Source: Vreelandella profundi
Lineage (GTDB): Bacteria; Pseudomonadota; Gammaproteobacteria; Pseudomonadales; Halomonadaceae
Direction of reading: 5' to 3'
Assembly: GCF_019722725.1 (NCBI RefSeq)
Contig: NZ_CP077941.1
Span: 2,418,001 to 2,482,000 of the forward strand
Length of the DNA stretch: 64,000 bases
In this document: positions 43,915-54,687 of the stretch, one piece after another
How positions within the stretch are numbered: position 1 is the first letter of the stretch
How the letters are laid out: each line of letters starts with the position of its first letter
Position numbers and translations under genes: made by a program
The notes under the pieces: model-generated
Databases searched by the model: none
The model's input: the letters and a program-made list of their open reading frames with translations, nothing else
Told to the model about the DNA's origin: nothing

Positions 43915-44076
43915 CAAGTATCACGTGAGTAAACAAAATCTTCGGCGTGGCGTCAATTAGCTTTTCCCAATTGAGACAACGCTGGCTATGCTTCGGCTAA
44001 TCAGGCCAGCCATGCCTGAGAGGATTGTTCACGATAAATGCTAGGCATGACGTGTTATAAGCACAGGGAACTATTT

Positions 44077-45132
44077 ATGCAGACTTTTAGCTGTTGCTGT
44101 GGCAATCCTGTTTTTTATGAGAATACTCAATGCCTTGCATGCCAGTCAGAAGTAGGCTGGTGTCCGAGTTGCAGCAACATTGTAGCCATTGAACCGCTGG
44201 AGAGTGGCGGCTTTCTCTGCACACACCCAGGCTGCGAAACCCCGCTAATGAAATGCTATAACTATGCCGTTGAGAACGTCTGCAACCGGATGGTGGTGAT
44301 GAAGGAAGGCCACGCTGACACGCTATGCGACTGCTGCCGCTATAACGACGTCATCCCTGACCTGGCGATTGACGGGCACCGTGAGCGCTGGGCAGCCCTT
44401 GAAGCCGCTAAGCGTCGGCTATTTCATACGCTGGATCTACTCAAACTGCCGCACGGCACCAAAGACGATGATATTGCCGTGCCCTTAAGCTTCTCGTTTA
44501 TGGCGGACGCCCTGCCCGACCAGGGGCTGTGGCGCTCGACCGCCAAGCAAGAGAAGGTATATACCGGGCATGCCTCTGGACACATTACGATCAACGTCAA
44601 AGAAGCCGATGACGTGGAGCGTGAGCGCCTGCGGGTCGATATGAATGAGTCCCACCGCACGCTGATCGGCCATTTCCGTCATGAAATTGGCCACTACTAT
44701 TGGGACGTGTTGGTGAAAGAGCGCGATGAAGAAGCCTGCCGCGCGGTATTTGGCAATCATCACCGGCCGAGCTATGCCGAAGCCCTAGAGCAGTATTACC
44801 AAACGGGCGCTCCCGCTGACTGGTCCAATCGATTCATTTCCGCTTACGCCACCATGCACCCGTGGGAGGATTTTGCTGAAACGTTCGCGTACTACTTGGA
44901 TATGGTAGCGGTGCTGGATACAGCGCTGCATATGGGCATTACCCACGTTGAATACGACGGCAGCCTAGATAGCATGCTGATTGCTTTTCATCAGGTCGGG
45001 TTAGCGGTAAACGAACTGAATCGCGATATGGGACTACTCGATTTAGCCCCTGGAGTGCTTGCCCCGCCCGTACGTGAAAAGCTGGCGTACCTGCATAAAA
45101 TCATTCAGGCCGCCAGCCCGGTACCGCGTTAA
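44077..45132 (+). CDS. Putative zinc metallopeptidase with N-terminal zinc-ribbon-like cysteines
   Basis: About 351 residues from ATG 44077. The N-terminal 60 residues hold paired Cys (SCCCGNPVFYENTQCLAC, CPSC) like zinc-ribbon knuckles. The catalytic motif HEIGH is at 202-206 (FRHEIGHYYWD) and a conserved HPWEDFAETFAYYLDM at about 261-276 supplies the third metal-ligand Glu, so it belongs to the gluzincin-like putative zinc-binding metallopeptidase family. It ends four bases from the stop of the alpha-E gene and is part of the transglutaminase/ATP-grasp neighbourhood. Substrate unknown. Confidence 0.85.
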   Translation: MQTFSCCCGNPVFYENTQCLACQSEVGWCPSCSNIVAIEPLESGGFLCTHPGCETPLMKCYNYAVENVCNRMVVMKEGHADTLCDCCRYNDVIPDLAIDGHRERWAALEAAKRRLFHTLDLLKLPHGTKDDDIAVPLSFSFMADALPDQGLWRSTAKQEKVYTGHASGHITINVKEADDVERERLRVDMNESHRTLIGHFRHEIGHYYWDVLVKERDEEACRAVFGNHHRPSYAEALEQYYQTGAPADWSNRFISAYATMHPWEDFAETFAYYLDMVAVLDTALHMGITHVEYDGSLDSMLIAFHQVGLAVNELNRDMGLLDLAPGVLAPPVREKLAYLHKIIQAASPVPR

Positions 45133-45136
45133 CCGG

Positions 45137-46153
45137 CTAGTCGTTGTCGTTATCGCCAGCGTGACTTTGGCTTTGACTTTGGCTCTGCCCCGGCGATTGC
45201 GCCACGCGCGGCACGCTGTCGTCATTAACAAAATACGTCGCGCTGAGCGTATCGTGAATGGCGGCAAAGCCAATCTGCAGCTCATCGATGAACGCATGCA
45301 GCTTGCTGGGCGAATGCGCCAGCGCTTGAATATCGGCGTCCACCACGTCGGCACGTACCAGCGAAACAGTCGCCGCTGGGCGGTCTTGTCGGGGCAATAG
45401 CGTAAGCTCATGGAGCAACGTTTCAAGACTGCAAGCAATCGAGCGCGGCAAGTTTGGGTCTTGCAGTAGAAAGCGCAGTACGTCCGGCCCCCGCACACGC
45501 AGGCGCACCTGTTGACGGTACATTTGGTAAGCGGTTAGTGATTTAAGTACGCTCATCCACTGAAGGTTTTCAAACGGCAGCAGCTCTTCAGGGTTCTGGG
45601 GCAGCAAGCTGGCAGAGCGCACGTCAACAATACGCGTGGTCATATCGGCGCGCTCTAGCTGGCGGCCCAGCTCAATAAACGTTCGCGCCGGGCCGTGGCT
45701 TAAGGTGCCTTCAATCAGCCCCGTTAGCGCCTGGCATCCGCGAATCACACTTTTTAAGAAGCTATCTCGGCGCCTTGGGCTAACGCCATTTTCGGCATGG
45801 TCGGCCACACTCAGGTAAAGCTGATTGACCTCTTCCCATATCTCTCTTGGCACAACGTCCCGCGTGGTTCTTAAGTTCTCGCGGGCACTGGCGAGTGCGG
45901 AAATAATCGAAATATCATTATCGGGATCAGCACACAAAAAGTGCACTACGTTGCGCTCATCAAAGCTGTCATGACGCGATTTAAAAGTTTCCAGGCTGCC
46001 AGTCATATCAATGAGCGGTGCCCAGCCCAACGGTAGGCGCCCTGGCAAATCAAGCATTAGATGGCTGTTAACACTTAACAGACGCGCGGTATCTTCCGCA
46101 CGTTCGATATAACGCGCCATCCAGTAAAGGTTCTCTGCAACGCGTGACAGCAT
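45137..46153 (-). CDS. Alpha-E domain protein (stand-alone)
   Basis: 338 residues, almost all helical, DUF403/alpha-E family (COG2307). Signature MLSRVAENLYWMARYIERAEDTARLL at the start. Alpha-E proteins are found with circularly permuted ATP-grasps and transglutaminase-like proteases; their biochemical activity is not established. The C-terminus is a low-complexity run (QSQSQSQSH then DNDND) encoded by imperfect 6-base repeats. The gene is four bases downstream of the ATP-grasp gene, in one transcript. Confidence 0.92.
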   Translation of the reverse strand: MLSRVAENLYWMARYIERAEDTARLLSVNSHLMLDLPGRLPLGWAPLIDMTGSLETFKSRHDSFDERNVVHFLCADPDNDISIISALASARENLRTTRDVVPREIWEEVNQLYLSVADHAENGVSPRRRDSFLKSVIRGCQALTGLIEGTLSHGPARTFIELGRQLERADMTTRIVDVRSASLLPQNPEELLPFENLQWMSVLKSLTAYQMYRQQVRLRVRGPDVLRFLLQDPNLPRSIACSLETLLHELTLLPRQDRPAATVSLVRADVVDADIQALAHSPSKLHAFIDELQIGFAAIHDTLSATYFVNDDSVPRVAQSPGQSQSQSQSHAGDNDND

Positions 46154-46157
46154 GGCG

Positions 46158-47639
46158 TTAGTCTCCTTTCACCGCGGCCGCTGCCGCTTTTTCATCGGTT
46201 TCCACAATCCAAGTATCTTTACTGCCACCGCCTTGGGAAGAGTTAACCACCAGCGAGCCCTCTATTAACGCTACTCGGGTTAAACCACCGGTGGTCACAT
46301 GAATTTCAGGCCCTGAAAGAATAAAGGGCCGTAAATCCACATGGCGCGGCTGCGGCACACCATTCGCCAGCGTAGGGGTCGTCGAAAGCGCCAGGGTGGG
46401 CTGAGCCATGTAGTTGCGCGGATTAGCTTTAATCAGTCGCGCGAACTCTTCGCGCGTTTCTTTGGTTGAACGTGGGCCAATCAGCATGCCGTAGCCACCC
46501 GACTCATTGGCAGGCTTTACCACGAGTTCATCCAAATGATCGAGGACATAGCGCCGGTCGTCTTCGAACATACACAGGTAGCTGGGGACGTTAGGCAGCA
46601 GCGGCTCCTGGTCGAGATAGTAGCGAATCAGCGCGGGAACAAAGGCATAAACGACTTTGTCATCTGCCACGCCAGCGCCGGGCGCATTGGCCAGCGCCAC
46701 TTTGCCCGCCCGCCAGGCGCGCATTAGGCCTGCCACCCCCAGCATAGAGTCAGGATTAAACACTTCGGGATCTAAAAACTCATCGTCAACGCGGCGATAA
46801 ATAACATCCACTCGGCGCATGCCTTCTACGGTGCGCATAAAAACGACATTATCGTCATCGACCAGCAGGTCACTCCCCTGTACCAGCTCCACTCCCATTT
46901 GCTGGGCAAGATAGGCATGTTCAAAGTAGGCAGAGTTATAGATCCCTGGGGTAAGTACGACGATCTGTGGTTCATCCCCCGGGCGCGGCGACATAGCTGC
47001 CAACATGTCGTAAAGCTGCGCGACGTAATCATCTACCGGCAAAATCTTGCCTGAGGCAAATAGTTCCGGCAGCACTCGCTTGGTAACGTTACGATTTTCA
47101 AGCATGTAAGACACGCCGGAAGGTATGCGCAGGTTATCTTCCAATACATACAGCGTACCGCTGCCATCGCGCACTAAGTCAGAGCCACAGATATGCGCCC
47201 ACACGCCATGGGGCGGATTAATCCCGACACACTGGGGGCGAAAGTTAACTGATTGGGCCAACACCTCAGCCGGCAGCACCTTATCCTTGATAACTTTTTG
47301 ATCGTGATAAATATCGTCGATAAATAAATTCAGCGCCTGCACACGCTGTTTAAGCCCCGCTTCTGTTTTACGCCACTCGCTGGCGGGAATAATCCGCGGC
47401 ACAATATCAAAAGGCCAAGCGCGATCAATCATTGCGCCTTCTGAATAGACGGTAAACGTAATCCCCATGGTGCGTATCGCGATCTCGGCCGCGGTTTTCC
47501 GCTCGGCCAATTCCTCGGCGCTAAACCTTGCCAACATGTTGCACAATTCACCCGCTGACTCGCGCGGCTGACCCGGTGCGGCCATCAGCTCATCGTAATA
47601 GTCACGACACGCATAGTTATTCCAATTCACTTGGCTCAT
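46158..47639 (-). CDS. Circularly permuted ATP-grasp type 2 protein (active form)
   Basis: 493 residues, COG2308 (DUF404/DUF407). The permuted ATP-grasp is predicted to make amide or peptide bonds with ATP. Conserved blocks are PRIIPASEWRKTEAGLKQR, PHGVWAHICGSDLVRDG, the ATP site DELVVKPANESGGYGM with its Lys and glycine-rich loop, and QGGGSKDTWIVE at the C-terminus. It heads the leftward operon with the alpha-E gene. A sigma-54 promoter lies upstream at 47728-47743. Confidence 0.93.
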   Translation of the reverse strand: MSQVNWNNYACRDYYDELMAAPGQPRESAGELCNMLARFSAEELAERKTAAEIAIRTMGITFTVYSEGAMIDRAWPFDIVPRIIPASEWRKTEAGLKQRVQALNLFIDDIYHDQKVIKDKVLPAEVLAQSVNFRPQCVGINPPHGVWAHICGSDLVRDGSGTLYVLEDNLRIPSGVSYMLENRNVTKRVLPELFASGKILPVDDYVAQLYDMLAAMSPRPGDEPQIVVLTPGIYNSAYFEHAYLAQQMGVELVQGSDLLVDDDNVVFMRTVEGMRRVDVIYRRVDDEFLDPEVFNPDSMLGVAGLMRAWRAGKVALANAPGAGVADDKVVYAFVPALIRYYLDQEPLLPNVPSYLCMFEDDRRYVLDHLDELVVKPANESGGYGMLIGPRSTKETREEFARLIKANPRNYMAQPTLALSTTPTLANGVPQPRHVDLRPFILSGPEIHVTTGGLTRVALIEGSLVVNSSQGGGSKDTWIVETDEKAAAAAVKGD

Positions 47640-47727
47640 GGGCGCTCTCCTAGCGCTGGGGTGGAAGCAGCAACTTCCTCAATGCTCAGTGTAGGCCTGC
47701 TGCGCGCAAAACAATCAAACAATTGAG

Positions 47728-47743
47728 AGCAAAATACGTACCA
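47728..47743 (-). promoter_or_regulatory. Sigma-54 promoter, leftward
   Basis: Minus strand TGGTACGTATTTTGCT: GG and GC elements are separated by exactly 10 bases, and only one position differs from the TGGCACG-N4-TTGCW consensus (T for C). The start would be near 47717, about 78 bases before the ATP-grasp ATG. Confidence 0.78.
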
Positions 47744-47818
47744 TCTTTGGCGATATTTCAACGCTTGCTAGCGCAAACGTTATTGGACAAGGCGAGCAAT
47801 CAAATTAACGGCCCGTTT

Positions 47819-47835
47819 CGCATTATTTTGGTGCA
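47819..47835. promoter_or_regulatory. NtrC-like enhancer site shared by two promoters
   Basis: CGCATTATTTTGGTGCA differs from the NtrC consensus TGCAC-T-N5-GGTGCA at two positions, both in the left half. Its centre is about 110 bp upstream of the leftward sigma-54 start and 121 bp upstream of the rightward one, typical enhancer distances. A second half-site (TTAGTGCAC, ending 47860) is nearby. Confidence 0.62.
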
Positions 47836-47921
47836 ATAAGTGGGTGTTATATTAGTGCACACAGCGCTTTCCACTTTAGTTAAACGCCTTAGTTAAGATA
47901 CCGGCTGCAAAATAGTAAAAG

Positions 47922-47937
47922 TGGAACGATACTTGCG
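47922..47937 (+). promoter_or_regulatory. Sigma-54 promoter, rightward
   Basis: TGGAACGATACTTGCG: GG-N10-GC spacing is exact, with A for C at the fourth position and G for W at the last compared with TGGCACG-N4-TTGCW. The start would be near 47948 and leaves a leader of about 52 bases before the ATG at 48000. Confidence 0.75.
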
Positions 47938-47999
47938 AAACGTTCGGTTATTCCTTATCCCAACCATACGGTTGATAACGGTTCTTTTGAGGGTGGCCC

Positions 48000-50900
48000 A
48001 TGACCATTCGCGTTGCCTTGTATCATCGAACGACCTACCATTTTGATCGCCCGGTGCGTCTTTCGCCCCATGTCATTCGGCTGCGTCCGGCGCCTCACTG
48101 TCGCACGCACATTGAGGCTTACTCCCTCAAGCTTTCTGGCGACGACCACTTTTTGAACTGGCAGCAGGATCCGTTCGGTAACTTCAATGCACGGGTGGTC
48201 TTTCCAGAGCCGCGTAAAGAGTTAACGATTGCCGTCGAGCTCATCGCACCGATGACGGTCATTAACCCGTTCGATTTCTTCTTAGACGATATCGCGCAAA
48301 CGATTCCCTTTGCTTACCCAGAAGCGCTGCGTCAAGAGCTCAGCCCGTATTTGGAAATTACCGAATCGGGACCGCTGCTAATAAAGTGGCTTCAGGATGT
48401 ATCCCACGAGCCCACCACGACGGTTGATTTTTTAGTCGCGCTTAACCAGCGCCTGCAGAACGATATCGGCTATCTCGTGCGCTTAGAGCCGGGCGTGCAG
48501 AGCTGCGAAGAAACCTTAACGCTTGCTAGCGGCTCCTGTCGCGATAGCGCCTGGCTGCTGGTGCAGATTTTTCGACATCTCGGGCTAGCTGCTCGATTTG
48601 TCTCGGGCTACCTCATTCAGCTTAAATCCGATGTTAAAGCGCTGGATGGCCCTAGCGGTACCGAGGTCGACTTCACTGACCTACACGCCTGGACCGAGGT
48701 ATTTCTGCCCGGCGCAGGCTGGGTAGGGCTGGACCCAACTTCGGGTCTATTCGCTGGCGAGGGTCATATACCGCTAGCCGCTACCCCAACTACCGGCAGC
48801 GCGGCCGCGATCACTGGTTTTTCCGACAAGTGTGAAGTCACGTTTGACGTGACCATGGAAGTAGCGCGCATTCACGAAGACCCGCGCGTCACCAAGCCCT
48901 ACAGCGATGAGCAGTGGCAGCGGATCTGCACGCTAGGCGATGACGTAGATGCCGAACTCCTCCAGCAGGACGTCCGCCTGACCATGGGCGGCGAACCGAC
49001 GTTTGTTTCCATTGACGATATGGAAAGCCCGCAGTGGAACACCGAAGCACTGGGCGAGCACAAGCGTGAACGAGCCGAGGCGCTGCTTACGCGCCTGCAG
49101 AATGCCTACGCACCCGGTAGCGCTATTCAACAACAGCAGGGCAAGTGGTATCCCGGCGAGCCGTTACCGCGCTGGGCGCTGGCCTGTTACTGGCGCAAAG
49201 ATGGCGTGCCGCTATGGCGAGATCCTCAATGGCTGGCCTGCCTGGAGGGCGCCGCCCAGGTAGATGTAAATGACACACTGGCTCAACGTTTCACCCAGGC
49301 GCTTAGCGAGCGCCTGGGCGTGGCTGCACGCTACTGGATTCCTGCGTTCGAGGACACCTACTACTATCTCTGGAAAGAGCAGTCGCTTCCGGTCAATGTT
49401 GATCCCCGCGAAACGAATCTGAAGGACGATGCCGAACGCTTGCGTTTAGCTCGCCTATTAGAACAAGGCTTAGATGAAGTGATTGGCTACGCTTTGCCGC
49501 TGCGCCATTCGCTTAGCCAGGCCCATCGCTGGGAAAGCGGGCGCTGGCCGCTCAAGCGCGAGCATCTATTCCTAGTGCCCGGCGATTCCCCCATGGGGCT
49601 GCGATTACCGCTTGCGGCGCTTCCCTGGGCAGACCCCGAAGAGCAGCCTCAGCCGGAATCACTGTTCGCCCACCGCCCAGCGCTAGGCGATATTCATGGC
49701 GAAGTCGCGCGCAGAAATGTCGAACAGCTGCATATTAGCGATGCTGAACGCCTGGGCCGCTCTAGCCATCCCAGCTCGTCACATCCTGAAGGCGAGTCCG
49801 TTCAACAGCAGCCGCGAGCAGACACCGACCGGGAAAGCGGCGTCATTCACACCAGCCTGTGTGTGGAGCCACGCGACGGACGTTTACACATTTTCCTACC
49901 ACCGCTGACCAGCCTTGAGCACTATCTTGACCTGCTTAGCACCGTCGAAGAGTGTGCGAAAGAGCTTGCCTGCCCGGTGATGGTAGAAGGCTACTCGCCG
50001 CCCAGAGACCCACGGTTGGAAAACTTCATGATCACTCCCGACCCTGGCGTGATCGAGGTCAATATTATGCCCGCTGCCAGCTGGCAAACCCTGGTGGCGC
50101 AAACCGAACGGCTGTACGTCGAAGCGCGGGAAACACGCCTGGGCACCGAAAAATTTATGCTTGATGGCCGTCATACCGGTACCGGCGGCGGCAACCATGT
50201 CACGCTAGGCGGCTTAACGCCGGAGGATTCGCCGTTTTTACGCCGCCCTGATTTGCTTGCCAGCCTAGTCACCTACTGGCAGCACCACCCTAGCCTCTCC
50301 TATCTGTTTTCGGGCTTGTTTATTGGCCCGACTAGCCAGGCCCCGCGGGTTGATGAAGCGCGCCATGAAGCCTTGTATGAGTTAGAAATTGCCCTTCAGC
50401 AAATACCTGAAGGCGAGGTGGTTCAACCTTGGCTGGTCGATCGGCTGTTGCGCCATCTGCTGACTGACTTAACCGGCAATACGCATCGTGCCGAGTTCTG
50501 TATCGACAAGCTTTACTCGCCGGATAGCGATAGCGGGCGTTTAGGGCTGTTAGAACTGCGTGGTTTTGAGATGCCGCCGCATGCCCGAATGGGGCTTATG
50601 CAGATGATGCTAATACGCGCGCTGGTGGCGCGCTGCTGGAAAACGCCGTATCGCGCTAAGCCGGTGCGTTGGGGCAGCGCACTGCAAGATCGTTGGATGC
50701 TGCCCCACTACTTATGGAATGACCTTGACGACGTGCTGGGCGACTTACGCCATCACGGCTTTGATTTTGATCTTAAATGGTTCGCCCCGTTCCTTGAGTT
50801 CCGCTTTCCGCTGCATGGTCGACTGCAAACCCCCATGCTGAATATAGAGCTGCGCCAAGCCATCGAGCCGTGGCACGTGTTGGGCGAAGAGGCTTCCGCA

Positions 50901-51350
50901 GGCGGCACGGCGCGTTACGTCGACTCCTCGGTTGAGCGCCTGGAAGTCAAAGTCAGCGGCATGAGCGGCGACCGCTATGTAGTGACCTGCAATGGACGCC
51001 GTGTGCCTCTTGCCGCCACCGGCCGAAACGGTGAAGCGGTTGCAGGCGTGCGCTACCGTGCCTGGCAGCCGCCTTCTGCTCTGCACCCGCAGATTCCCAT
51101 CCACGCGCCGCTCGTATTTGACGTTATCGACACCTGGAACCAGCGCTCTGTTGCGGGTTGCACCTACTATGTGGTGCACCCTACCGGGCGCAATTTCGAC
51201 ACTTTCCCAGTCAATGCCTTTGAAGCCGAAGCGCGGCGGCTAGGGCGCTTTAGTGATAGCGGCCATCGTCATGGGCATCAGGTACCCAAGGTGGAAACAC
51301 CCAGCCTTGAGCTGCCGCAAACGCTCGACCTGCGCTGGACGCCAAGCTAA
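48000..51350 (+). CDS. Transglutaminase-like protease fused to DUF2126
   Basis: 1116 residues. The first 300 form a bacterial transglutaminase-like domain with N-terminal beta region (YHRTTYHFDRPVRLSPHVIRLRP) and catalytic triad C180 (GSCRDSAWLL), H229 (DLHAWTEVF) and D245 (GLDPTSG). Residues from about 310 (RLTMGGEPTFVSIDDMESPQWN) to the end are DUF2126. The DUF2126 part holds HTGTGGGNHVTLGG and LLELRGFEMPPHARMGL blocks. Such proteins are predicted peptidases or amide-bond exchangers paired with ATP-grasp ligases. The next gene starts 21 bases later. Confidence 0.93.
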   Translation: MTIRVALYHRTTYHFDRPVRLSPHVIRLRPAPHCRTHIEAYSLKLSGDDHFLNWQQDPFGNFNARVVFPEPRKELTIAVELIAPMTVINPFDFFLDDIAQTIPFAYPEALRQELSPYLEITESGPLLIKWLQDVSHEPTTTVDFLVALNQRLQNDIGYLVRLEPGVQSCEETLTLASGSCRDSAWLLVQIFRHLGLAARFVSGYLIQLKSDVKALDGPSGTEVDFTDLHAWTEVFLPGAGWVGLDPTSGLFAGEGHIPLAATPTTGSAAAITGFSDKCEVTFDVTMEVARIHEDPRVTKPYSDEQWQRICTLGDDVDAELLQQDVRLTMGGEPTFVSIDDMESPQWNTEALGEHKRERAEALLTRLQNAYAPGSAIQQQQGKWYPGEPLPRWALACYWRKDGVPLWRDPQWLACLEGAAQVDVNDTLAQRFTQALSERLGVAARYWIPAFEDTYYYLWKEQSLPVNVDPRETNLKDDAERLRLARLLEQGLDEVIGYALPLRHSLSQAHRWESGRWPLKREHLFLVPGDSPMGLRLPLAALPWADPEEQPQPESLFAHRPALGDIHGEVARRNVEQLHISDAERLGRSSHPSSSHPEGESVQQQPRADTDRESGVIHTSLCVEPRDGRLHIFLPPLTSLEHYLDLLSTVEECAKELACPVMVEGYSPPRDPRLENFMITPDPGVIEVNIMPAASWQTLVAQTERLYVEARETRLGTEKFMLDGRHTGTGGGNHVTLGGLTPEDSPFLRRPDLLASLVTYWQHHPSLSYLFSGLFIGPTSQAPRVDEARHEALYELEIALQQIPEGEVVQPWLVDRLLRHLLTDLTGNTHRAEFCIDKLYSPDSDSGRLGLLELRGFEMPPHARMGLMQMMLIRALVARCWKTPYRAKPVRWGSALQDRWMLPHYLWNDLDDVLGDLRHHGFDFDLKWFAPFLEFRFPLHGRLQTPMLNIELRQAIEPWHVLGEEASAGGTARYVDSSVERLEVKVSGMSGDRYVVTCNGRRVPLAATGRNGEAVAGVRYRAWQPPSALHPQIPIHAPLVFDVIDTWNQRSVAGCTYYVVHPTGRNFDTFPVNAFEAEARRLGRFSDSGHRHGHQVPKVETPSLELPQTLDLRWTPS

Positions 51351-51370: not shown

Positions 51371-53824
51371 GTGCAGGATAATCCGCCCCTCACTTTTCAG
51401 GATTATAAGGAAATGACGGCCCCTGTCTCTCCCTCTCTTATCGCGCCGCTCGCTAACGGGCTCGTTGAGGACTACTTGAATCAGCTAGGCAAGGGACAGC
51501 CCGGCACATTTGACGCCATGCTTGATGGCCAAGGGCAGCTGCGCCCTGGCTGGCAAAGCCTGCTGGGTTCTTTGGAAACCCTGGGCCCAGAAGGCCGTTA
51601 TCATCAGCATGAAGAAATTCAGCGCCTGCTAGCCGAGAACGGCGTGATTTTCAATATGCACGACGAAGCCCAGGGGCGTTCTTGGCGGCTGGACCCACTC
51701 CCCTGGGTGATTGATGAAGCCCAGTGGCAAGCGTTGGAAGCGGGGCTCACGCAGCGCAGCCGCTTACTGTCCGCAATTTATGATGACATTTACGGGCCTA
51801 GAACGCTCTTTGATGCCGGCTTGCTGCCAACTCAGGCACTGCTCGCCTCCTCAGACCTACTGCTGCCTTGCCACGATTCACTGCCTAAAGATCACGCCCC
51901 GATCACCTTCCACGGCGTGGATGTGATTCAAGACACACAGGGTCAGTGGCGGGTAATGGCAGACCGGCTGCAAGCGCCCTCAGGCACCGGCTTTGCGCTT
52001 GAAAATCGTATTTTGATGGCGCGCGCGCTGCCGGACATGTACCGCAATGCGCCGCTTAAACGCTTAGCCGGCTTTCTTGACCTGCATCACCGCACGCTTA
52101 TCGCCATGGCCTACCAACACCGCGATAACCCGACGCTTATCTTGTTGACGCCGGGGCCAGCAAGCCCACGCTATTTTGAGCACGCTTACCTGGCCAACTA
52201 CCTCAATATTGCGCTGGTAGAAGGCCAGGATTTAGTCGTGCGCGACACCCAGGTGTGGCTGCGCACGCTGGGTGGCTTGCAGCCAGTGGATGTAATATTG
52301 CGCCACTGCGACGATAGTTACTGCGACCCGCTAGAGCTACGCGGTGACTCTCAGCTCGGCGTGCCAGGGCTACTGCAAGCGATGCGTGCTGGCGGCGTGG
52401 CGCTTTCTAACGCGCTGGGGGTCGGTATTTTGGAATCCCCTGTACTCGCCGACTACCTGCCTGCGCTGTGCGAGCACCTACTGGGCGAAACGTTACTGCT
52501 TGCCAATGCCGACGCCACGACTCAGCCAGCCACCGCACCCATTTTTGACAGCTACCTGCAGCGTTTAGCGCCCACCACGCTCAATCTGCGCTGCTTTGTG
52601 ACGCGCACGCCTGCTGGTGGCGCCGCTAAAACGCCTGCGACGAGCGAATACCAGGTCATGCCCGGCGGCCTAGCTTGGGTTGGTGAGCCCGGTTCCCCCT
52701 CGCTCAGCAGCACAGTCGTTAAAGATGTATGGGTCACGGCTGCCTCACCTCAGCCGCATGTTAGCCAGCTACGCCAGGCCCGAGGCCCGGTGGTGGCCAC
52801 TCGCGATGGAACAGACCTGCCTAGCCGAGTGGCTGAAAGCCTGTTTTGGCTGGGCCGCTATGGCGAAAGGCTAGATACCCGCGCTCGCCTGCTGCGTGAA
52901 GCGCTGCTGAGATTAATGGAGTATGACCAGGACGAGATTGCTGACCAGCTGCTTGATGAGCTGCTGCTGGCGCTGGATATCACCACGCTCAATGAAGACG
53001 ACGAACACCGACTTCTGGCACCGCTCGTTGGCTTTGATCAGAAGCGCACGGCGCTGCTGGCTCAGTTTGACGATGTCGACCCCCAGGCCTTGCAGCCGCT
53101 GTTTGCACAGCTGATGCGCAATGCCCGCAGCGTGCGTGATCATTTAGGTGACGACTCTTGGCGCGTGGTACATCAATTACGCCAACGAATAGCGACGTTT
53201 AATCCAAGCCTAGGCACCAGCGCTGCACGGCGTGCCTGTGAAGGTCTCTCTGCCCAGCTGGCGGCCTTCTTTGGGCTGTGTAACGAAACCATGCCACATC
53301 ACTATGGCTGGCGCTTTATGGATATTGGCCGATTCTTAGACCGCGTGCTGGGGCTTCTCTCGCTACTTAAGCTGACGCTCAATGCTTCGCACACGCCGGG
53401 GCTGGCCCTGTGGGAAGTAGTGCTGGCGACGACCGATAACTTCACCGCTTACCGGCGGCGCTATCGCAGCGAGCTTCATCCAGCGGCGATTCTAGATTTA
53501 CTGCTGTTCGATGAAACCAACCCACGCTCGGTGGGCTACATGCTCAAACGCCTTGAGCGTCAGATGGAGCGTTTACCCGGCACAACGTCACCTTATCGTA
53601 ACGCTGAACGGCGGCTATTAATTCAAGCCAATGCGGCGCTGCACCTTGCAGACATTGATCGCTTAAGCCACTTAGCCGATACACCCTCGGCACAAAAGGC
53701 ATTAGAACAATTGCTGGATGCTCTCATTGAACCGTTAAGCGCGCTTTCCGAAGCCGTTGGTCAGAGCCATTTCAGCCACGTGGAGCGCCCGCGCCAATTG
53801 GTTAGCATGGAGCCCAATGCATGA
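51371..53824 (+). CDS. Fused permuted ATP-grasp (degenerate) and alpha-E protein
   Basis: 817 residues, GTG start at 51371. Residues 1 to about 470 align with the 493-residue ATP-grasp (RLQAPSGTGFALENR, YFEHAYLANYLNIALVEG, VDVILRHCDDSYCDP). After LCEHLLGETLLLAN, roughly 60 residues are missing, namely those that carry the ATP-site Lys and GGYG loop in its partner. Residues from about 480 (PSRVAESLFWLGRYGERLDTRAR) are an alpha-E domain. It therefore looks like a non-catalytic or scaffold version. The stop overlaps the next ATG (ATGA). Confidence 0.9.
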   Translation: MQDNPPLTFQDYKEMTAPVSPSLIAPLANGLVEDYLNQLGKGQPGTFDAMLDGQGQLRPGWQSLLGSLETLGPEGRYHQHEEIQRLLAENGVIFNMHDEAQGRSWRLDPLPWVIDEAQWQALEAGLTQRSRLLSAIYDDIYGPRTLFDAGLLPTQALLASSDLLLPCHDSLPKDHAPITFHGVDVIQDTQGQWRVMADRLQAPSGTGFALENRILMARALPDMYRNAPLKRLAGFLDLHHRTLIAMAYQHRDNPTLILLTPGPASPRYFEHAYLANYLNIALVEGQDLVVRDTQVWLRTLGGLQPVDVILRHCDDSYCDPLELRGDSQLGVPGLLQAMRAGGVALSNALGVGILESPVLADYLPALCEHLLGETLLLANADATTQPATAPIFDSYLQRLAPTTLNLRCFVTRTPAGGAAKTPATSEYQVMPGGLAWVGEPGSPSLSSTVVKDVWVTAASPQPHVSQLRQARGPVVATRDGTDLPSRVAESLFWLGRYGERLDTRARLLREALLRLMEYDQDEIADQLLDELLLALDITTLNEDDEHRLLAPLVGFDQKRTALLAQFDDVDPQALQPLFAQLMRNARSVRDHLGDDSWRVVHQLRQRIATFNPSLGTSAARRACEGLSAQLAAFFGLCNETMPHHYGWRFMDIGRFLDRVLGLLSLLKLTLNASHTPGLALWEVVLATTDNFTAYRRRYRSELHPAAILDLLLFDETNPRSVGYMLKRLERQMERLPGTTSPYRNAERRLLIQANAALHLADIDRLSHLADTPSAQKALEQLLDALIEPLSALSEAVGQSHFSHVERPRQLVSMEPNA

Positions 53825-54687
53825 ACTACACGCTGCGGCATACTACGCGCTATGACTACAGCGCCCCGGTCACGCTGTGCCATAGTGAAGCGCGTGTATT
53901 GCCACGAGAAACACCCCACCAGCAGTGTGGCGTTTCTGAGCTGCACATTAGCCCTGCCCCGCAGGTGCAAATGGAGCGCCGCGATGTGTTTGGCAACCGT
54001 GTACTGTATTTCGCCATGGAAGACGTTCATCAGCGTCTGGATGTCACGGTGATAACCTCGCTGAGCACTCAGCCGCTGGCCGCGCTGCCGAGCACATCAC
54101 CAGCGTGGGAAGACGTCGTTAAACATCTTAGCCAAGACGCTCGCTTTGACGTTCAGCTCTATCGCTTAGACTCGCCGTTTATTCGCCGCAACCCTACATT
54201 AGCCGCTTTCGCACGCGAGTGTTTCACGCCGGGCCGGCCGTTAGTTGAAGCGGCATTAGCACTTAACAATCTGATTCACAGCACGTTTGAATACGACCCA
54301 AGCTTCACCACGCTAGCGACGCCGCTGAGCGAAGTGCTCACCAATCGGCGCGGCGTCTGCCAAGACTTCGCTCATCTAGCCATTGGCGCATTACGCTCGA
54401 TAGGCCTCACGGCCCGCTACGTCAGCGGCTATTTGGAAACTCAGCCGCCGGCTGGGCAGCCGCGCTTAATTGGCGCGGATGCCTCTCATGCATGGCTGGC
54501 CACCTGGATTCCTGAATGGGGCTGGTTGGCACTTGATCCTACCAACGGCACCGTGCCCGGCGAGCAGCACCCCGTGCTCGCCTGGGGGCGAGACTATGCC
54601 GACGTGGCGCCGCTTAAAGGCGTGATGAATGGCGGTGGCGAGCATCGTTTGGAGGTAAATGTTGATGTGCTGCCCGCTGCAGGCTAA
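53821..54687 (+). CDS. Transglutaminase-like protease, stand-alone
   Basis: 288 residues of the bacterial transglutaminase-like cysteine protease family (COG1305). N-terminal beta domain (YTLRHTTRYDYSAPVTLCHSEARVLPR), then the triad C180 (NRRGVCQDFAHL), H223 (DASHAWLATW) and D239 (LALDPTNG). No signal peptide is visible, so it acts in the cytoplasm unless exported otherwise. It is the last gene of the rightward operon, overlapping the fusion gene by four bases. Confidence 0.93.
   Translation: MNYTLRHTTRYDYSAPVTLCHSEARVLPRETPHQQCGVSELHISPAPQVQMERRDVFGNRVLYFAMEDVHQRLDVTVITSLSTQPLAALPSTSPAWEDVVKHLSQDARFDVQLYRLDSPFIRRNPTLAAFARECFTPGRPLVEAALALNNLIHSTFEYDPSFTTLATPLSEVLTNRRGVCQDFAHLAIGALRSIGLTARYVSGYLETQPPAGQPRLIGADASHAWLATWIPEWGWLALDPTNGTVPGEQHPVLAWGRDYADVAPLKGVMNGGGEHRLEVNVDVLPAAG

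Follow-up and report, generated by a model that had tools for sequence, protein, structure and literature searches.

The window (the whole 64-kb stretch of DNA that was analysed) carries two divergent gene arms, which are separated by a gap of 360 bp (47640-47999) and start with the open reading frames 46158-47639 on the reverse strand and 48000-51350 on the forward strand. The following genes were assigned by domain search:

46158-47639, reverse strand: circularly permuted (CP) ATP-grasp protein (PF14403/PF04174), left arm
45137-46153, reverse strand: Alpha-E protein (PF04168), left arm
48000-51350, forward strand: protein with transglutaminase N-terminal and core domains and a DUF2126 amidoligase domain, right arm
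51371-53824, forward strand: fusion of CP ATP-grasp and Alpha-E, right arm
53821-54687, forward strand: transglutaminase-like protein, right arm

Genes of CP ATP-grasp, Alpha-E and transglutaminase proteins are thus grouped at this locus, as belongs to an amidoligase/transglutaminase system. The names DUF404/407 and DUF403, used for some of these proteins, are taken here to mean CP ATP-grasp and Alpha-E, respectively. The closest named relatives of the locus are Vreelandella and Halomonas. The genome (3.64 Mb, one contig) contains a single match for rpoN and an NtrC ortholog (148604-149980), which is located behind glnA (145814-147202). With 748.8 bits against a cut-off of 558.6, this ortholog is the only one above the cut-off among five genome matches that span more than 300 positions of the NtrC model. 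A scan of positions 46100-48100 against Rfam gave no match at gathering scores.

A zinc-ribbon Peptidase_Mx gene (44038-45132, forward strand) lies convergent to the Alpha-E gene. Its homologue occupies the same flank at 24 of 27 Halomonadaceae loci, being absent from L017, L022 and L023 (in L017 and L023 the sequence ends there), and in L038 and L078 it is found beyond the opposite end of the system. This gene may belong to the amidoligase system.

Several putative control elements were located in the gap:

47688-47694, reverse strand: CTACACT, lying downstream of the left sigma-54 site and possibly a basal -10 element for the left arm
47728-47743, reverse strand: predicted left sigma-54 (-24/-12) promoter TGGTACGTATTTTGCT, reading into the CP ATP-grasp and Alpha-E genes, with a predicted start at about 47717
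47819-47835, no strand assigned: NtrC-like enhancer CGCATTATTTTGGTGCA with the core GCAnnAnnnTnnTGC
47852-47859, forward strand: second NtrC-like half-site TTAGTGCA, 24 bp further and often TTGGTGCA in relatives, aligned by eye
47905-47933, forward strand: CTGCAA-N17-GATACT, a weak, near-invariant sigma-70-like pair overlapping the right sigma-54-like site
47922-47937, forward strand: right sigma-54-like site TGGAACGATACTTGCG (GG-N10-GC), with a predicted start at about 47948

The first-pass annotation, made from the sequence alone, had proposed a leftward sigma-54 motif with GG-N10-GC spacing, and TGGTACGTATTTTGCT was found exactly as described. It agrees with the consensus TGGYAYG-N4-TTGC; the sigma-54 consensus given in the part of PMC5491218 consulted is GGcacg-N4-ttGC. 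This site ranks first among 127,970 window positions in the scan with the sigma-54 matrix, and is the sole window match, and one of five in the genome, to TGGYAYGN4TTGCW with no mismatches. The reversed control of this pattern gave four genome matches, so that the pattern by itself is not enriched. Since pattern matches in the window alone are expected by chance at such lengths, conservation was used as the test.

The window was aligned with 27 Halomonadaceae loci, making 28 closely related loci whose counts are not independent, and scores were obtained with sigma-54 and NtrC matrices of unfitted weights. The matrix scan and the comparison of the same gap in relatives, which the annotation had suggested as checks, came out in its favour for the left promoter and the NtrC site: 24 of the 28 loci retain the core of the left sigma-54 promoter, and an NtrC site scoring at least 9 is present in 21. 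Both GG and GC of the right site are intact in 20. It is this conservation that raises the predicted motif set above chance.

The left core TGGYAYG-N4-TTGC is retained in 23 of the 27 relatives, while its 4-bp spacer differs among them (TATT, CATT, TATA, GAGT), a pattern expected from selection on the -24 and -12 elements. The core is absent from L020 and L021, which both have the left gene, from L024, where a different leftward sigma-54 site lies closer to the right gene, and from L017, where the contig ends and the left arm with its sigma-54 site is out of sequence. In 21 of the 28 loci, the motif CTAMACT occurs no more than 60 bp from the start codon of the left arm; it is perhaps a basal promoter, like the one at enteric glnA.

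An NtrC-consensus-shaped site between the two promoters had also been proposed. The published consensus is a 17-bp dyad, TGCACCAnnnTGGTGCA, with the core GCAnnA/TnnTGC (PMC8743547, seen in part), and CGCATTATTTTGGTGCA matches the core exactly and the full dyad in one half only; the other half, GCATT, is degenerate and was counted against the NtrC model. The core match on its own proves nothing, since its single occurrence in the window compares with 2.08 expected by chance. The position of the site is conserved in relatives: NtrC scores of at least 11 were obtained in 19 of the 28 gaps (shuffled mean 0.5) and of at least 9 in 21 (shuffled mean 1.35), which leaves seven gaps without a site at the lower threshold. 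The distances to the predicted starts, 111 bp on the left and about 120 bp on the right, agree with the 110 and 121 bp estimated originally. In 15 of the 28 loci, the site lies 74-77 bp from the left promoter; the gap of L015 was entered in this count as 203 bp, so its left site, found by other scans, was missed there. In several relatives the dyad is cleaner than that of the window, examples being AGCACTTTTTAGGTGCA in L016 and the very good dyad AGCACCAATTTGGTGCA, which remains before the right arm in L017. In many alignment rows, inspected by eye, the second half-site TTGGTGCA follows 22-24 bp beyond the NtrC site. Another conserved block, TTTCCAC..TTAAACGCCTTA, lies at 47867-47895, past the NtrC site and ahead of the right promoter. 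A search with GCACCN5GGTGC at up to three mismatches was useless as an NtrC test (331 matches against 354 expected).

A composite pattern, NtrC-N60-90-sigma54, loosened in advance so as to admit the window's own site, has three matches in the genome including this locus, and its control has none. The motif pair also occurs between glnA and ntrC (L087, G000:C1:147307-147435), where the NtrC dyad AGCACCAATATGGTGCA lies 96 bp before the sigma-54 site TGGCGCGCTTATTGCA. The open reading frame between this ntrBC-type promoter and ntrC is presumably ntrB, and the sigma-54 site falls within the longest reading of this putative gene in the mechanical list of open reading frames. Upstream of glnA itself, TGGCATGATCTATGCT is accompanied by the half-site TTTTGGTGCA, and no NtrC dyad scoring 9 was found there. 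The degenerate dyad of the window is thus not unusual in this genome, as glnA has a half-site without a scoring dyad. On the proper strand of amt there is only a weak pair about 500 bp out (sigma-54 11.2 and NtrC 9.7, 96 bp apart), which counts against the NtrC model, amt being an expected NtrC target.

The annotation had placed sigma-54 motifs on both arms, and GG-N10-GC is indeed present on both, but the right one is weak. Three other sites in the 64 kb, one of which is the left site, score as high or higher. GG and/or GC of the right site are lost in eight of the 28 loci (L012, L014, L016, L017, L020, L023, L024 and L026; in L012, by eye, GG and CTGCAA are kept and GC is lost), whereas CTGCAA is found in 27 and [GA]ATACT in all 28. 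The sigma-54 signature is therefore not the best conserved feature on the right, and the right site was rejected as an equal of the left one. A sigma-70-type promoter, as predicted from this alignment, is a serious rival to sigma-54 at this site. A generic sigma-70 consensus scan flagged neither CTGCAA-N17-GATACT nor CTACACT; its one match inside the gap lies at 47850-47822 on the reverse strand (shuffled mean 0.6).

Of 390 genomes sampled from the order, 119 have DUF2126, and upstream parts of 80 of the 119 loci were taken, leaving out some from genera already covered and most partial matches. Sigma-54 scores of at least 13 were obtained for 20 of 36 ATP-grasp-led operons, 19 of 33 solo DUF2126 genes and, in divergent gaps, seven of 11 rightward and nine of 11 leftward stretches, with shuffled means of 0.15-0.6. 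At the same threshold there was none on the wrong strand of the 69 ATP-grasp-led operons and solo genes, and none in 36 internal gaps, a control of 250 bp that is shorter than the 450-bp upstream stretches compared with it. Counted by genera, a rightward site was found in 24 of 44, against none of 41 on the wrong strand; one of the 20 genera without it, g1, the genus of the window, has a leftward site. The full layout, with strong sigma-54 sites both ways and a central NtrC dyad, was found in genus g66 of another family (L136, L139 and L160), and in g52, of which four loci were taken, L183, L184 and L189 have back-to-back sigma-54 sites with no NtrC dyad above threshold.

Among 53 loci from outside the Halomonadaceae, many of them from Methylococcales, 22 have a sigma-54 site scoring at least 13; in L058, L060 and L068 an NtrC-like dyad lies 84-86 bp upstream. 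A motif TGGAAC-N6-TGCW was observed about 85-105 bp before the DUF2126 gene in Methylococcales L030, L035, L036, L040-L042, L044-L049, L053, L056 and L057. In L030 it is a variant with TTGCT. The motif may be a sigma-54 promoter whose -24 element is unusual. Besides the 22 loci scoring at least 13, others of the 53 keep TGGAAC-N6-TGCT at a lower score.

In the wider phylum, 60 loci were taken from 120 genomes with DUF2126, leaving out the order itself, matches that were split or partial, and some genomes of genera already covered; 57 were usable, and three of the four 'coLA' rows (L203, L242 and L251, more than 4 kb) were set aside. Nine loci reach a sigma-54 score of 13. Six come from the 15 solo loci within the same class, one family accounting for five of the six, and the other three (L254, L256 and L259) are divergent loci with a leftward site. 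None of the 35 solo loci outside the class has such a site, indicating that in this sample the link with sigma-54 belongs to certain lineages, chiefly gammaproteobacterial, and not to the system everywhere. Outside the Halomonadaceae, 13 of 84 sigma-54 sites (10 loci) have an NtrC score of at least 13 in the stretch 40-220 bp upstream, compared with 0.28 when this stretch was shuffled; the collections overlap (L009/L163, L025/L171 and L017/L150 are apparently the same loci), and some sites are counted twice. NtrC dyads are clearly enriched before these sites, and the 71 sites without a dyad leave room for other activators or half-sites elsewhere.

Nitrogen control of similar clusters has been described, in the portions of the papers that were available. 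In Burkholderia cenocepacia H111, the cluster I35_5080-83 (BCAM1233-1236) consists of genes of DUF404/407, DUF403, transglutaminase-like and large transglutaminase-like proteins, which under nitrogen limitation changed by -8.2, -9.4, -9.4 and -6.0 fold, respectively, in an ntrC mutant, and the cluster is named among the common sigma-54/NtrC targets (PMC5491218). In wild-type Pseudomonas putida, nitrogen limitation raised PP_2686-2688 11- to 15-fold, with 1.12 for PP_2685 (PMC7801951), and in another study PP2685-2687 were raised, with 11.1 for PP_2685 (PMC3325844); nitrogen induction is also cited in two papers on Anbu (PMC6376114, PMC5666114). In the P. putida rpoN mutant of PMC7801951, PP_2686-2688 were still raised 14- to 20-fold, and the urt genes, which are assigned to NtrC, rose 7-17-fold. 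This would point either to sigma-54 independent control there or to a leaky mutant. As far as these excerpts go, this induction is the main contrary datum for sigma-54. Transglutaminase-like genes met in the consulted parts of PMC12096838, PMC12239564, PMC8567248 and PMC10274813 belong to other systems or could not be linked to the one in the window.

It is probable (about 0.75 for each statement) that the gap 47640-47999 is an Ntr-type control region, with nitrogen limitation as its likely trigger, and that the left arm is under the control of NtrC and sigma-54, judging from the motifs and their conservation. The proposal of nitrogen limitation as the trigger gains from the conserved sites, the NtrC ortholog and the B. 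cenocepacia target cluster, as excerpted (PMC5491218). Under nitrogen limitation, phosphorylated NtrC would bind the central site or sites, loop to the RNA polymerase-sigma-54 waiting at 47728-47743 and, by hydrolysing ATP, allow transcription of the CP ATP-grasp and Alpha-E genes; the same enhancer could serve the sigma-54-like site 47922-47937 of the right arm. We infer NtrC binding, looping and the transcription starts at this locus, as well as an amide or peptide product that is made or broken when nitrogen is short. The right arm probably has basal expression here with at most a partial NtrC boost, because its sigma-54-like site overlaps a better conserved sigma-70-like element.

That in this organism a single NtrC enhancer is shared by both arms, each fired by sigma-54, can be proposed only tentatively. 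The right site has an exact GG-N10-GC and in 13 loci, the window included, is 84-86 bp away from the NtrC-like site, and the strong sites on both sides in g66 and g52 and the TGGAAC-N6-TGCT motif of many Methylococcales speak for it as well, but the loss of GG and/or GC under a persisting CTGCAA-N17-GATACT, together with the three other sites in the 64 kb that equal or beat the right site in score, speaks against it. It is improbable that another sigma-54 activator works at the enhancer in response to a signal other than nitrogen: the four further matches to the NtrC model and the many sigma-54 loci of the order without an NtrC-like dyad would allow this, but CGCATTATTTTGGTGCA fits the NtrC core, the pair of NtrC and sigma-54 motifs is present between glnA and ntrC as well, and a cluster with these kinds of protein has been published, in the part consulted, as dependent on ntrC (PMC5491218). 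Equally improbable are sigma-70 or sigma-S promoters for both arms (CTACACT on the left, CTGCAA-N17-GATACT on the right) with the sigma-54 motifs as relics or chance. In favour of this reading, both elements persist in L020, which has lost the sigma-54 motifs of both sides, and in L021, which has lost the left one, and the excerpted P. putida rpoN data would fit; against it, the left core is kept over a varying spacer, sigma-54 enrichment is strand-specific across the order and the sigma-70 scan flagged neither element.

The NtrC and sigma-54 reading of the gap also bears on the role of the system, for which the accessible literature offers no settled substrate. It had been called a system without known role, which is right for its biochemistry as far as that literature goes; for clusters of this type, control by nitrogen had been published before, in the sources as excerpted. 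Of the annotation's steps, the suggestion that the system may store nitrogen is the weakest. Stores are usually built in excess, so an ordinary nitrogen store is less likely for a system induced by starvation, and a set of amide-making and amide-cutting enzymes would fit recycling or remodelling better. It is conceivable, yet on balance doubtful, that the system has long formed a module within the nitrogen-starvation regulon of many Gammaproteobacteria and that, in lineages with divergent arms, one NtrC assembly fires two outward sigma-54 promoters and keeps the amide-making and amide-cutting arms in step for the recycling of protein or peptide nitrogen. The sigma-54 sites in 24 of 44 genera, together with the published NtrC dependence, suggest a growth condition in which to seek the product, and the divergent layout with one enhancer is a natural test of a single NtrC site serving two promoters.

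Among known systems, the amidoligase systems of Iyer et al. 2009, as described in papers citing them, have the same domain set as the window. The B. cenocepacia cluster has the same four protein kinds, matched by names only, and in the part of the source consulted its gene numbers suggest one cluster, whereas the window has two divergent arms. The P. putida operon PP_2685-2688 (the Anbu operon) shares ATP-grasp, Alpha-E and transglutaminase with the window and is raised by nitrogen limitation, but differs in having the proteasome-like Anbu (PP_2685), according to the same excerpts. Eight proteins of the window were scanned for domains, with models that did not include one of Anbu, and none of the matches was of that kind. 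Word searches of the available text of two sigma-54 surveys (PMC12316311, PMC3162934) found neither transglutaminase nor ATP-grasp, and the accessible literature on this system with sigma-54 or NtrC yielded no paper on promoters of the divergent arrangement. As in regions of the glnA/ntrBC type, the NtrC dyad of the window lies 75-100 bp before a -24/-12 promoter; unlike them, the window has one enhancer between two divergent promoters, of which the left also has a conserved basal-looking element. Since NtrC/sigma-54 control has already been reported from experiments on the same kinds of genes in another bacterium, the layout is informative and not new in kind: such control is already familiar from clusters of these proteins, and the divergent arrangement around a shared enhancer is a new variant of it.
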